DNA of 39,287 nt, from positions 1 through 39,287 of IMG/VR virus record IMGVR_UViG_3300042876_000381. The stretch is one strand, 5' to 3'. Shown here piece after piece: positions 3,844 to 31,030 of the stretch. The stretch is from a virus. The position numbers were made by a program, and so were the translations under genes. Under the pieces are notes generated by a model. It saw only the letters and a program-made list of their open reading frames with translations, was not told the origin of the DNA and did not search any database. Positions within the stretch are counted from its first letter, which is position 1; every line of letters starts with the position of its first letter.

Positions 3844-4440
3844 CTAATCCGCCTCCTCCGCTAACCCCGCAGTTACCTGATCGCGCGCCCAGTTACCAGC
3901 GTTTATTCCGGCTTTGGCGAGGTCGTTGAGCAATTCAAAGTCTCCGGTGGATACCACGATGGAAGTTTCGGACAAGCCGTCATCCCCTTCGGCAACACGA
4001 TTTTCGGCGGCGGTATTGGTTCCGCTGCTATAGGCAGGACAGACTTTTGACAGCCTGTTGTTATCAGCATAGCGGGCAGAAGCGTCCCGAATAGCAATAG
4101 CGTTGAGATTTGCTTTTTCACGATTGAGCCTTTCGATCTGGATTTGCTTGTCAGTGACCGCCTTGTTCATTGCAATCTGTGCGGCGCGTGCGACTTCGCT
4201 TGCTGCCTTCATGGCGGCAATGGTCTTGTCCCGTTGTTCGACAGTCGCCAGCGCCTTTTCAGCCCGTCCCTGCCACTTGGCGTTGGATAGCCACAGGAAG
4301 CCCACAGAAGCCACCAGAGCGACGATAAGGACGTGCCGCCAGTCAGAGAGCACCCAGCGCACCCCTGCCTTCACAGCGCGTCCTAGAGCCTGTCCTATGC
4401 CGAGTAGCTTGAAGCCGATTGTTGCAAGTCCTAATGGCAT
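3844..4440 (-). CDS. inner-membrane spanin (Rz-like), 198 aa
   Basis: Last gene of the late operon and the last step of lysis: spanins fuse or disrupt the outer membrane after peptidoglycan is cut. The N-terminal ~30 residues precede one membrane helix (HVLIVALVASVGFLWL). A long periplasmic coiled-coil follows (about residues 55-115), as expected for Rz. An Rz1-like lipoprotein gene lies inside it in another frame, which supports the call. Start: ATG with GAAAGGAC seven bases upstream. Confidence 0.8.
   Translation of the reverse strand: MPLGLATIGFKLLGIGQALGRAVKAGVRWVLSDWRHVLIVALVASVGFLWLSNAKWQGRAEKALATVEQRDKTIAAMKAASEVARAAQIAMNKAVTDKQIQIERLNREKANLNAIAIRDASARYADNNRLSKVCPAYSSGTNTAAENRVAEGDDGLSETSIVVSTGDFELLNDLAKAGINAGNWARDQVTAGLAEEAD
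3903..4121 (-). CDS. outer-membrane lipoprotein spanin (Rz1-like), nested in Rz
   Basis: 72-aa ORF starting at GTG with AAAGG seven bases upstream, wholly inside the Rz-like gene in another frame. It has a lipoprotein signal: a basic start (MKKQ), a hydrophobic stretch (LLLFGTLLPAMLI) and a Cys at position 24 in ITTGC. A proline-rich segment follows (AEPIPPPKIVLPKG), typical of Rz1. The lipobox is not canonical, with Thr rather than Leu at -3. A nested Rz1 is a known arrangement in lambda, so I trust this despite the loose lipobox. Confidence 0.75.
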   Translation of the reverse strand: MKKQISTLLLFGTLLPAMLITTGCQKSVLPIAAEPIPPPKIVLPKGMTACPKLPSWYPPETLNCSTTSPKPE

Positions 4441-4497
4441 GTGCTATGTCCTTTCTCGCCAGTGTGATCCTGCGAAGGCAGGGGTAGGTCTGGCACC

Positions 4498-4571
4498 GAG
4501 TGACGCGGGGCATAAGACGCCTACGCCTTAGCCTTGTGAATATGGTGCAAGGTATGAAGCCCGCGTCACTC
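4498..4571 (-). repeat. 12-bp inverted repeat between holin and spanin genes
   Basis: Perfect arms GAGTGACGCGGG (4498-4509) and CCCGCGTCACTC (4560-4571) flank 50 bases, with a smaller inner hairpin CCTTG/CAAGG. The right arm overlaps the end of the holin-like gene. The element fills most of a 125-base gap in an otherwise gapless operon, so the transcript here should fold. Attenuation, mRNA processing or timing of spanin translation are all possible roles. Confidence 0.6.
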
Positions 4572-4802
4572 ACCTTCCCCCGTTGGCGGCACATCATCCC
4601 GCCCCTTTGGCCGGAACGTCCCGATAACCCCAATCAGGCCAGTGGTTGCCGCACCGATGAACGCAAGCTGCGCATTGACCTTGGCAATCTGTTCTTCGGT
4701 CCCGTCAAGCTGCTGCACGATAATCACGCCGCACAATGTCAGGCCCACGATTGCCGCCAGTGTCGCCAGATAGGCCCACAGGGCTTCCCGAACGGATTTC
4801 AT
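4566..4802 (-). CDS. holin-like membrane protein, 78 aa
   Basis: Two probable membrane helices (about residues 9-31, LWAYLATLAAIVGLTLCGVI, and 46-64, LAFIGAATTGLIGVIG) separated by a charged linker, with a charged C-terminal tail. It lies directly downstream of the endolysin gene, with a 4-base overlap, in the lysis cassette. Size, topology and position fit a class II holin. The 76-aa protein at 5332-5562 is a competing candidate. Confidence 0.6.
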   Translation of the reverse strand: MKSVREALWAYLATLAAIVGLTLCGVIIVQQLDGTEEQIAKVNAQLAFIGAATTGLIGVIGTFRPKGRDDVPPTGEGE

Positions 4803-5335
4803 GCTTCATTCCGCGACAGAACACCCGTAGCGGCCACCCTATAGGGCTTCACGCTATCAGGCTTGGAATTATACACCGGACGCCTTACCGCAATGCAGCG
4901 GCTTTTCTCGATGCGCGTAACACTTACCCTGTTCGACTGATTGCCGCCCAGGACATGATAGGCCGTTGCGTCCTCTGCCACATAGAAGCCGACATGCCCC
5001 CCGCCGTTGCGGACAAATACCAGAACGTCGCCAAGGCCAGCCTCTGTAACGCCCGTCCCGAACTTCGCCCAATTGCGCGCCCATAGCGGAGAGGCAACGC
5101 CCCTCTTGCCCGCACGATGAACCACGATAGCCGCGAACAGCCCGCACCACGGAATGTCATCATCAGAGAAGCCAGCAATCGACACACCGGCAGCGTTCAA
5201 TTCATCCCGCCAGCCAATGATTGTCTTGTTGCTGCCCTTGCCGACAACCTCTTGGACGCCATGCAGTTTGACTGCTTCCTGTATCGTGCGGGGCAATTGG
5301 CCGACATTGGCCAGCCATTCGTATTTCGGTATCAT
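4799..5335 (-). CDS. endolysin, TIGR02594-type NlpC/P60-CHAP-like, 178 aa
   Basis: Peptidoglycan hydrolase of the lysis cassette. The central part matches the TIGR02594 / NlpC-P60-like fold: DIPWCGLFAAIVVHRAG with probable catalytic Cys64, then GLGDVLVF and GGGHVGFYV with probable catalytic His114, then LGGNQSNRV. No signal peptide is seen, so it needs a holin. It has 4-base overlaps on both sides. Cleavage of a cell-wall peptide bond is inferred from the family. Confidence 0.85.
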   Translation of the reverse strand: MIPKYEWLANVGQLPRTIQEAVKLHGVQEVVGKGSNKTIIGWRDELNAAGVSIAGFSDDDIPWCGLFAAIVVHRAGKRGVASPLWARNWAKFGTGVTEAGLGDVLVFVRNGGGHVGFYVAEDATAYHVLGGNQSNRVSVTRIEKSRCIAVRRPVYNSKPDSVKPYRVAATGVLSRNEA

Positions 5336-28811: not shown

Positions 28812-29285
28812 TTAAGCTGCGATTTTCATTTTCTCGATGTTGGCGATGTATGCAGTCAGATCGCGCATCGCCTCTTTCAGCAGGGGCAGCGCGTCCAATT
28901 GCTCTTTAGGCGTTTCAGTCTTGCCGCCCTCGCTGTCAGGGTGACGCATGGCGCAAATGGCCGATACCGACATTGCCAGCGACGCCAGCGGGTCGGTCTT
29001 GGTAAAGCTAAGGCTTTCCGCTCGCGCGCCATAAAGCGCATGGTAAGGGTCCACAGTATGCGCGCCGTAGATCGCACCGATGCGGGCAATGCTGGCAGCG
29101 TTCAAATCTGCCTTGCCGTTGCGGGCGTTGGCAATCGTGCCAGCAGATACGCCTAGCTTGTCGGCAGTGTCCTGATCGGTTTCCTGCGTATCACGCTGTA
29201 TGTCGCGGATGATTGCCGATACCGCAGCCCGCAAAGAACTTTGTGTAGGCAGAGTCAAAGGCAATAAGACATTATTGCGCTGCAT
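28812..29285 (-). CDS. HTH transcriptional regulator, CII-like position, 157 aa
   Basis: Residues ~30-62, DIQRDTQETDQDTADKLGVS then AGTIANARNGKADLN, form a helix-turn-helix of the Cro/CI (XRE) type. The C-terminal half is a helical oligomerisation-like region ending LKEAMRDLTAYIANIEKMK. It is the second regulator of the leftward early operon, downstream of the cro-like gene, as CII is in lambda. That parallel is positional. Start: ATG with GGAG seven bases ahead. Confidence 0.75.
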   Translation of the reverse strand: MQRNNVLLPLTLPTQSSLRAAVSAIIRDIQRDTQETDQDTADKLGVSAGTIANARNGKADLNAASIARIGAIYGAHTVDPYHALYGARAESLSFTKTDPLASLAMSVSAICAMRHPDSEGGKTETPKEQLDALPLLKEAMRDLTAYIANIEKMKIAA

Positions 29286-29670: not shown

Positions 29671-29699
29671 ATAAAAGCATATTTCAATATGCTATTCAA
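29671..29699 (-). promoter_or_regulatory. leftward early promoter (pR-like) of the cro-like gene
   Basis: On the - strand: -35 TTGAAT (29699-29694), 17-base spacer occupied by an operator, -10 TTTTAT (29676-29671). The layout is the same as the rightward promoter at 30721-30749. Repressor bound in the spacer would block RNA polymerase. Confidence 0.7.
29676..29693. promoter_or_regulatory. operator 1 (perfect dyad)
   Basis: AGCATAT-TTCA-ATATGCT, a perfect 7-bp dyad with a 4-base centre, in the spacer of the leftward promoter. It is the best copy of the four operators. Confidence 0.75.
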
Positions 29700-29706
29700 G
29701 CGCAAA

Positions 29707-29724
29707 AACATATCAGCATGTGCA
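29707..29724. promoter_or_regulatory. operator 2, near the predicted cI promoter
   Basis: On the - strand TGCACAT-GCTG-ATATGTT, an imperfect copy of operator 1 placed 31 bases away (three helical turns). It lies upstream of a possible cI promoter (-10 TTATAT at 29734-29739), so the repressor bound here could regulate its own gene. Confidence 0.65.
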
Positions 29725-29747
29725 AGCGGTCATTTATATCCCGGCGC

Positions 29748-30416
29748 ATGGAAAAGACTGCCGACGAGAAGCGCGAGATACTGCGCAAGTTCATAAAGGA
29801 CCGCGAATTGAAGATCGCGCGCTGGTGTAAGGAATCCGGCGTTGACAAAAACAGCGTTTACAATTTTTTGAACGGCCATTCGCAATCGCTCGATTTGCGG
29901 ACATACGGCAAATTGGCTAGAACGGCGGAAGTGCCGGTTTGGCAGTTATCAGGAGACCAACCGCAAGCGCCTAGCCCTACGTCAATCTGGGTGGCAGGCG
30001 ATGTGCAAGCAGGGGCGTTCAGAGAAGCAGTGGAGTGGGATCAATCAAACTGGTATGGCGTAGATGTGCCGGTGCCAGCGCAATTCAGAGGCCGCGCGAA
30101 GGCGTTAGAAGTCCGTGGCACTTCGATGAATATAGACTATCCCGAAGGCAGCATTGCAGTTTGGGTGCCAATGTTGGATTTCCGCCCGCCGCGCAATGGC
30201 GATGACGTGCTTGTGTATAGCTACTGTCATGACGGGCTGGTGGAGGCGACGTTGAAAGAATTTAGGATCGATGATGGTGGCGCAAAGTGGCTATGGCCGC
30301 GCTCCCACGATCCACTGCATCAAGCGCCTGTGGATATGGCGAATCCTAGCGGTGCGATCCGCGAAATCGAAATCGTCGGGATAGTGATAGGGTCATACCG
30401 ACCCCGCCACCATTAG
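29748..30416 (+). CDS. CI-like repressor with S24 peptidase domain, 222 aa
   Basis: Residues ~10-60 form an HTH domain (IKDRELKIARWCKESGVD then KNSVYNFLNGHSQSLDL). Residues ~80-215 form the LexA/CI-type S24 self-cleavage domain: Ala88-Gly89 in DVQAGAF as the cut site, Ser126 in RGTSMNID as nucleophile and Lys170 in ATLKEF as base. It maintains lysogeny and would be inactivated through RecA after DNA damage. No Shine-Dalgarno precedes the ATG and the predicted -10 (29734-29739) lies only 8 bases before it, so the mRNA is probably leaderless, as lambda cI from pRM. Confidence 0.85.
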   Translation: MEKTADEKREILRKFIKDRELKIARWCKESGVDKNSVYNFLNGHSQSLDLRTYGKLARTAEVPVWQLSGDQPQAPSPTSIWVAGDVQAGAFREAVEWDQSNWYGVDVPVPAQFRGRAKALEVRGTSMNIDYPEGSIAVWVPMLDFRPPRNGDDVLVYSYCHDGLVEATLKEFRIDDGGAKWLWPRSHDPLHQAPVDMANPSGAIREIEIVGIVIGSYRPRHH

Positions 30417-30649
30417 AACCTGGGCTTTGCCTGTTTCGGCTTATACGGGTCAACTGTGCCTGATTTTCCGGTGTGCGGATTGATGTTCGGCTTTGAACCC
30501 CAATTATTCGAAGTTTTGCCATCTGGCGCGGTGCGAACGTGCGGCGCTACATAGGTTCCATCCTTGCGAATGTGACCTTTCACCCGCACCGTTTCAGCGG
30601 CAAGCGGAGTGGCAATCAAACCCAAGACAGCAAAGGCAGCTAATTTCAT
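30413..30649 (-). CDS. small exported protein in the immunity region, 78 aa
   Basis: N-terminal signal peptide (MKLAAFAVLGLIATPLAA, cut likely before ETV). The mature part VKGHIRKDGTYVAPHVRTAP...GKTSNNWGSKPNINPHTGKSG matches a pattern seen in small secreted bacterial proteins of unknown function (GHxRKDGTYVxPHxR, NNWxxxxNxNPxTG). It lies on the opposite strand from cI, tail to tail with a 4-base overlap. A gene expressed from within the immunity region of a prophage is a candidate lysogenic-conversion (moron) gene acting in the periplasm. Confidence 0.7.
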   Translation of the reverse strand: MKLAAFAVLGLIATPLAAETVRVKGHIRKDGTYVAPHVRTAPDGKTSNNWGSKPNINPHTGKSGTVDPYKPKQAKPRF

Positions 30650-30694
30650 GGCAAACTCCCTGTTTTCCTAGAGAATCAGCACTACACGCAAAAA

Positions 30695-30712
30695 AACACA
30701 TTCAGATATGCT
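30695..30712. promoter_or_regulatory. operator 3, upstream of the rightward promoter
   Basis: AACACAT-TCAG-ATATGCT, an imperfect operator copy 32 bases upstream of operator 4. It shares the CACATTC..ATATGCTTT string with operator 4 as a direct repeat. Confidence 0.65.
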
Positions 30713-30720
30713 TTTTATGC

Positions 30721-30749
30721 TTGATTAGCACATTCTTATATGCTTTAAA
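30721..30749 (+). promoter_or_regulatory. rightward early promoter (pL-like)
   Basis: -35 TTGATT (30721-30726), 17-base spacer filled by operator 4, -10 TTTAAA (30744-30749). Expected start near 30756, giving a short leader with GGAG (30766-30769) before the ATG at 30776. It should drive the + strand operon and be shut by the repressor. Confidence 0.7.
30727..30744. promoter_or_regulatory. operator 4, in the rightward promoter spacer
   Basis: AGCACAT-TCTT-ATATGCT, differing from a perfect dyad at one pair. It occupies the -35/-10 spacer of the rightward promoter, as operator 1 does for the leftward promoter. Confidence 0.7.
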
Positions 30750-30775: not shown

Positions 30776-31030
30776 ATGACAACCCCCACCCAACTTGACG
30801 CAGCGCTGGCGCAGATTGACCGCGCCTTTGAGCGTATGGCTGCCGAACGGGCGCGCGACAACGCTGCGATGACGCCGGAACAGCGGGCCAGCCACAAACG
30901 CGCTTTGAACGCAATGCGCGCGACACCGACGCCTTGCAACAATGGCATTTTCACCGGACGCCCTGCGCGGGTTAGCGATGTCGAATACGACTATTACACC
31001 GGCCAAGCTGGCGCGGGGTATTTCGCATGA
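30776..31030 (+). CDS. hypothetical protein, first gene of the rightward operon, 84 aa
   Basis: Start set at ATG 30776 with GGAG six bases before; an in-frame ATG at 30764 lacks one. Helical N-terminal half (QLDAALAQIDRAFERMAAER), then a Thr/Pro-rich stretch. No family known. As the first gene after the repressor-controlled promoter it should be expressed earliest, a slot often used for host-takeover or antirepressor functions. That is speculation from position. Confidence 0.65.
   Translation: MTTPTQLDAALAQIDRAFERMAAERARDNAAMTPEQRASHKRALNAMRATPTPCNNGIFTGRPARVSDVEYDYYTGQAGAGYFA

Follow-up and report, generated by a model that had tools for sequence, protein, structure and literature searches.

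A candidate lambda-style immunity region with two operators on each side of cI in a temperate phage and its relatives

In the IMG/VR record IMGVR_UViG_3300042876_000381, which is the virus contig itself, the gene for a 222-aa CI-like repressor is placed between two outward early operons and flanked by two pairs of one 18-bp dyad, O1 and O2 on the left and O3 and O4 on the right. The window, i.e., the whole stretch of DNA analysed here, is the whole of that record (39,287 bp). We consider it very probable that the four dyads serve as CI operators in the lambda-style immunity region of a temperate phage and that they work by the mechanism proposed below, a reading drawn from comparative sequence analysis. 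A lambda-style switch with two operator regions around cI had been suggested in a first-pass annotation of this DNA, and it is supported by the HTH-plus-S24 make-up of CI, a Cro-like HTH gene diverging from cI, early operons leading outward on both sides, and operators in both early promoters of all 17 phages compared.

The late genes (terminase, portal and head) lie on the left side of the window and are transcribed leftward. The leftward early operon runs from the Cro-like gene (from 29663) through an HTH protein to an O-like/DnaD-like replication protein, while the rightward early operon, from about 30776, encodes an ERF recombinase, SSB and, at the far right, an integrase; replication on the cro side and recombination and integrase on the other is the lambda-type arrangement of early operons. 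The DNA of the HTH gene after cro matches Pam1 and Synechococcus phages, in which it carries the annotation 'regulatory CII protein'. A CII Pfam match was sought for the HTH protein and none was found, the CII label coming only from the annotation of the matching phages. A scan of the whole window for tRNA and Rfam elements found none. Coordinates are collected in Table 1.

Table 1. Features of the immunity region and adjoining early genes (positions in the window; strand and basis where assigned)
Feature	Positions	Strand	Basis or remark
HTH protein after cro, leftward operon	28812..29285	-	DNA matches phages annotating the gene 'regulatory CII'
Cro-like HTH protein, 64 aa	29469..29663	-	weak Pfam/PHROG HTH matches; HTH aligns with CI HTH
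-10 of cro promoter, TTTTAT, TGC (extended -10) ahead, supplied by O1	29671..29676	-	sequence, conservation
O1, AGCATATTTCAATATGCT, perfect dyad, within cro-promoter spacer	29676..29693		72 bp before cI ATG in 17/17 phages
-35 of cro promoter, TTGAAT	29694..29699	-	TTG invariant in 17/17
O2, AACATATCAGCATGTGCA, weaker, upstream of cro promoter, over -35 region of presumed cI promoter	29707..29724
Presumed -10 of cI maintenance promoter, TATATC	29735..29740	+	TA 10 nt after O2 in 17/17
CI-like repressor, 222 aa, N-terminal HTH (GVDKNSVYNF) and S24 domain	29748..30416	+
Cargo gene, 78 aa, signal-peptide-like N-terminus, phrog_29674 (unknown function), Shine-Dalgarno	30413..30649	-
Presumed cargo-promoter -10, TAGTGC	30679..30684	-	10 nt from O3, as O2 to cI promoter
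O3, AACACATTCAGATATGCT	30695..30712		32 bp from O4 (31 in all relatives)
-35 of rightward early promoter, TTGATT	30721..30726	+
O4, AGCACATTCTTATATGCT, within rightward-promoter spacer	30727..30744
-10 of rightward promoter, TTTAAA, TGC ahead	30744..30749	+	sequence, conservation
First gene of rightward early operon	30776..31030	+	start after GGAG; ORF finder start 30764

The dyads and their conservation in relatives

The first-pass annotation had placed the four dyads at 29676, 29707, 30695 and 30727, with spacings of 31 bp (O1 to O2) and 32 bp (O3 to O4), and both the positions and the spacings were confirmed. Its common dyad, A-G-C-A-x-A-T-N4-ATATGCT, stood only in part: it is exact for O1 and O4, but O2 departs from it at three positions and O3 at one. 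With up to three mismatches this loose consensus finds 15 places in the window where 9.6 would be expected, so the loose pattern alone is not significant. The symmetric form AGCAYATN4ATRTGCT, allowed two mismatches, finds only the four sites in the 39,287 bp, and its reversed control finds 0. A weight matrix built on 44 sites from 11 relatives, with the window held out, gave scores of 25.8 (O1), 16.2 (O2), 20.1 (O3) and 20.6 bits (O4); the next-best of the approximately 39,000 window positions scored 5.0 bits, a gap of about 11 bits. Across 60 simulated genomes the same matrix reached a top score of 18.2 bits, with a mean of 10.6.

Single-sequence CI searches of viral and genome contigs gave no relatives, which were found by alignment-based searches. 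One relative is Pseudanabaena phage Pan3 (L005, ON968454.1), which has a CI 70% identical to that of the window and the same four dyads. Further relatives from the alignment-based scans are the IMG/VR contigs L007-L011 and L014-L017, a Sphingobium boeckii prophage (L013, one element with L014) and the Sphingomonadaceae genomes L019 and L020, and a later scan added L033, L034, L035, L036, L038 and L039. The total of 17 phages consists of the window and 16 relatives, whose CI proteins are 54-71% identical to that of the window; L020, which carries the left region of L034 and has the same pattern, is left out, and L039 is counted once with L033 because it differs from L033 by an insertion in the cargo gene.

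The geometry of the sites hardly varies. Among the 12 phages compared first, one of them the window, O1 starts 72 bp and O2 41 bp (40 bp in L010) ahead of the cI ATG, and the six phages of the later scan, fetched after the geometry had been fixed, all obey it. The distance from O3 to O4 is 31 bp in 16/16 relatives and 32 bp in the window, while the stretch between the cI stop and O3 ranges from 0 to 596 bp in the first 12 phages and from 0 to about 2,000 bp over all relatives. A motif search in related prophages, which the first-pass annotation had put forward as a check, recovers the same four-site set in the 16 relatives. Its claim of two sites per region, where lambda has three, is likewise borne out by the window, in whose whole length there are only four sites, and by 15 of the 16 relatives. 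The exception is L010, the one relative with five sites, where a third right-hand dyad, TGCACATCCTGATGTGCT, lies at 5106-5123, 48 bp from O3. Across the 4 Mb genome of Sphingobium boeckii the pattern is matched perfectly at two places only, the core sites on either side of the prophage cI.

The immunity region apparently belongs to sphingomonad phages. Pan3 is on record as a cyanophage, yet its CI and operators are common to a Sphingobium prophage. A Sphingobium genome was co-assembled from the sequenced culture in the Pan3 paper (PMC9837993), and that Sphingobium may be the true host of Pan3. The words 'operator' and 'repressor' are absent from the Pan3 paper, and the operators are not described there.

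More distant CI relatives (L006, L021, L022 and L024) have other dyads around cI. TAGCG..CGCTA dyads at 4831, 4866, 4890, 6053 and 6088 in Nostoc phage Nsp-JY10 (L006), and GTCGGA-N4-TCCGAC dyads at 1307, 1336, 2111 and 2140 in a Sphingomonadaceae contig (L022), each flank a distant S24 repressor in a two-sided layout and are unrelated to the dyad of the window.

Regulatory proteins and early promoters

The repressor combines an HTH with an S24 domain, matching PF00717 (E=1.7e-7) and phrog_4 (E=2e-12) in addition to its HTH matches, and the S24 residues A88-G89, S126 and K170 are near-invariant among relatives. A Foldseek search with the structure model of CI (pLDDT 77) gave three PDB matches at E <= 0.001, namely the lambda-186 hybrid repressor (two chains) and the lambda repressor with RecA; global superposition of the model is poor, so the fold match rests on the domains. 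In L011 the CI (4001-4666) no longer has the Ala of the cleavage site and carries Cys and Arg in place of the catalytic Ser and Lys, and the four operators are kept; this CI is possibly a repressor incapable of self-cleavage. The divergent gene for the 64-aa, HTH-like candidate Cro is conserved in relatives. Database and fold matches of its product are weak, and comparison with characterised phage Cro proteins gave no strong match. Its HTH aligns with that of CI at P = 0.0004, but with an hhalign probability of only 35%.

The recognition helices of both proteins vary together with the half-site. A CI helix of the form VDKN[SA] (12 phages) goes with the half-site [AG]GCATAT, VSKNA (L035) with AGCACAT, and V[SA]ANS or VSPNS (L033, L034, L036 and L038) with CACAT without the conserved G. 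In five relatives (L033-L036 and L038) an altered CI helix accompanies a change of the half-site from CATAT to CACAT, and the Cro-like helix is altered in those same phages, from NTL[LYN]G to NTL[QR][GDE]. On a tree of the CI C-terminal domains only one or two changes of half-site label are needed, so the covariation could go back to as few as one or two events in evolution and counts as support, not proof. It would offer a small specificity code, in which CI residue 33 goes with base 5 of the half-site and residue 34 with base 2.

The promoters in which the first-pass annotation had set the core operators are literally as it described them, with O1 in TTGAAT-N17-TTTTAT (leftward, 29699 to 29671) and O4 in TTGATT-N17-TTTAAA (rightward, 30721 to 30749), the 18-bp dyad occupying the whole 17-bp spacer and reaching one base into the -10. 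Operators with one dyad are present in both early promoters flanking cI, as in lambda-type regions. The hexamers of both promoters are weak by consensus; a standard sigma-70 consensus promoter scan called no promoter in the window, and conservation was used as support. All 17 phages have TTG as the -35 ahead of both O1 and O4, with a 1-bp offset in one Pan3 case, and in each of the 34 promoters the TG of the core operator's inner half-site coincides with the extended -10. The degenerate -10 hexamers would be explained by the extended -10 that this operator-supplied TG provides.

The translation starts are tied to the operators just as closely. In all 17 phages exactly 12 nt separate O1 from the cro ATG, which comes 7 nt after the -10 hexamer. 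At cI a TA exactly 10 nt after O2 is invariant (17/17), and the -10 hexamer ends 7 nt before the ATG. These spacings leave no room for a Shine-Dalgarno sequence. Their geometry points to leaderless mRNAs, and the transcripts of cro and cI are both probably of this kind.

Proposed operation of the switch, alternative readings and the cargo slot

We propose that in a lysogen a CI dimer would fill the strong core site of each early promoter. Occupancy of O1 would shut off cro and leftward replication, and occupancy of O4 the rightward recombination/integrase operon; sitting between -35 and -10 and covering the TG of the extended -10, CI at either site would exclude RNA polymerase. A second CI dimer would join at the weaker upstream site, O2 or O3, about three helical turns off and probably cooperatively, so that the lytic promoters would be repressed first and cI autorepressed at higher CI levels. 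As O2 lies over the -35 region of the presumably leaderless cI promoter, its filling most likely limits the CI level, and O2 most likely serves autorepression, unlike the activating OR2 of lambda. Cro would likely use the same half-sites, O2 first, and so shut cI off. Following DNA damage, RecA-stimulated self-cleavage of CI would leave the sites empty and both early promoters would open together.

Two details of this scheme are tempered by work on other phages. The Cro of phiKO2 binds only OR3 and not OL (PMC4997575), so binding of all four sites by Cro cannot be assumed. Neither can cooperativity, given that the 933W repressor binds adjacent sites non-cooperatively (PMC3317979); the 31-bp spacing and the separation of O1 and O4 by about 1 kb are compatible with cooperative CI binding and OL-OR looping but prove nothing.

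Were the four sites chance palindromes of AT-rich intergenic DNA, one would expect a result such as that of the loose consensus, where three mismatches give 15 matches against 9.6 expected, but the 11-bit gap in the held-out model and a geometry that is identical in 16 relatives, newly fetched ones among them, refute this reading, to which we give practically no credence. It is also very unlikely that the sites are mainly bound by the Cro-like protein, with CI acting elsewhere or by another mechanism. The Cro-like recognition helix does covary with the half-site and the sites overlap the cro promoter; however, the CI recognition helix covaries as well, the four sites flank cI itself, and a search of the immunity region gave no other recurrent dyad for CI. 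Furthermore, the prophage repressor of N15 and phiKO2 binds all five of its sites (PMC4997575).

A more serious contender, though still an unlikely one, accepts the operators as real and has CI at O1/O2 activate its own promoter in a lambda-like positive autoregulation, the promoter needing CI to recruit polymerase for want of its own -35. A TTG-like -35 is indeed absent at the cI promoter in the window and 11 relatives, where the presumed -35 falls inside O2, and only the TA of the cI -10 is invariant, as expected for an activator-dependent promoter. The centre of O1, at -63.5, is close to where class I activators classically bind, as established for CRP. The centre of O2, on the other hand, is at -32.5 from the presumed start, on the -35 hexamer, while the activating OR2 of lambda is centred near -42; reckoned from the cI ATG, the geometry (O2 at -32.5, O1 at -63.5) puts no CI site near -42 of the cI promoter. 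In addition, the cI promoter of five relatives (L033-L036 and L038) carries an extended -10 (TGn) and may need no activator. A cI promoter with no recognisable -35 keeps activation alive as a reading, and autorepression through O2 is the one we prefer.

Several of the phages have a leftward cargo gene between cI and O3. In the window it encodes a signal-peptide protein of 78 aa; Pan3 has a lipoprotein of 109 aa there, the Sphingobium boeckii prophage a zinc-ribbon/membrane protein of 197 aa (or shorter) and L033 a lipoprotein of 115 aa. In these four phages a purine-rich, Shine-Dalgarno-like stretch precedes the cargo gene, and in 4/4 a TA lies exactly 10 nt from O3, as it does from O2 at the cI promoter. 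A TA is found at that distance in 1/12 phages without cargo (L009 only; Fisher 0.003, with L015 and L016 counted once and the test framed after the first three cases had been seen, L033 coming later). The right pair probably controls a lysogenic promoter as well, from which the leftward cargo gene would be driven in co-regulation with CI.

The switch might then consist of two mirror-image modules, each with a core operator in an early promoter and an upstream operator over an inward lysogenic promoter. The left module would make CI and the right one, where cargo is present, an exported protein or lipoprotein tuned with CI in the lysogen. We put this forward tentatively, as a plausible reading with the balance tipped slightly towards doubt. 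If it is true, new lysogenic-conversion genes could be taken up through insertion behind O3 and the gain of a TA 10 nt from it. The cargo gene of the window overlaps the cI stop by 4 bp, and its 78-aa protein is a candidate lysogenic-conversion or superinfection-exclusion gene product. L039 has the same immunity region and cargo lipoprotein as L033, with about 2.4 kb of extra DNA that breaks the cargo gene and includes a 300-aa ORF resembling an IS1595-type transposase.

Comparison with known switches

In the open-access literature we found no description of the 2+2 layout or of this dyad, and the novelty claimed for the dyad in the first-pass annotation holds as far as could be searched. The region is a compact one in which operator geometry is fixed almost to the base and the cargo slot is free to vary. 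It would offer a natural test of the fewest operators required for a stable CI switch, and of lysogeny without lambda's activating site, and the operator model allows the immunity groups of these phages to be predicted from the sequence itself.

The resemblance to lambda, with its OL, OR, CI and Cro, lies in an S24-domain CI of matching fold whose gene separates two operator regions, operators within both early promoters, a divergent Cro-like gene and early operons leading outward on both sides. Unlike lambda, which has three sites per region, the phages described here have two, with a different 18-bp dyad, and O2 lies over the -35 of the cI promoter instead of at an activating position. The sites are spaced by 31 bp and O1 and O4 are about 1 kb apart, whereas in lambda the operator spacing is about 24 and the corresponding operator distance over 2 kb.

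In the linear plasmid prophages N15 and phiKO2, OR and OL sites sharing one dyad likewise lie on either side of the gene for the prophage repressor CB, and their OL has two sites (PMC4997575). They differ from the window in their three OR sites, their T-A-(N)10-T-A motif and an OL that controls repA replication, and in phiKO2 Cro binds one site (PMC4997575); the window, with another dyad and another number of sites, is not of this three OR plus two OL type. The lambdoid phage 933W also has an operator region without a third site, lacking OL3 (PMC3317979, PMC5977221), but unlike the window it keeps OR1-OR3 and has an enterobacterial repressor and other operators. From N15/phiKO2 (three OR and two OL sites) and 933W it follows that two-site regions already exist. 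Leaderless cI and cro mRNAs, which we infer here, have been mapped in the immB region of PY54 (PMC4488713), which unlike the window has a single recognisable OR3 site. Pan3 and the Sphingobium boeckii prophage have the same CI family (70% identity), four dyads and geometry as the window and differ from it in the cargo gene carried between cI and O3.
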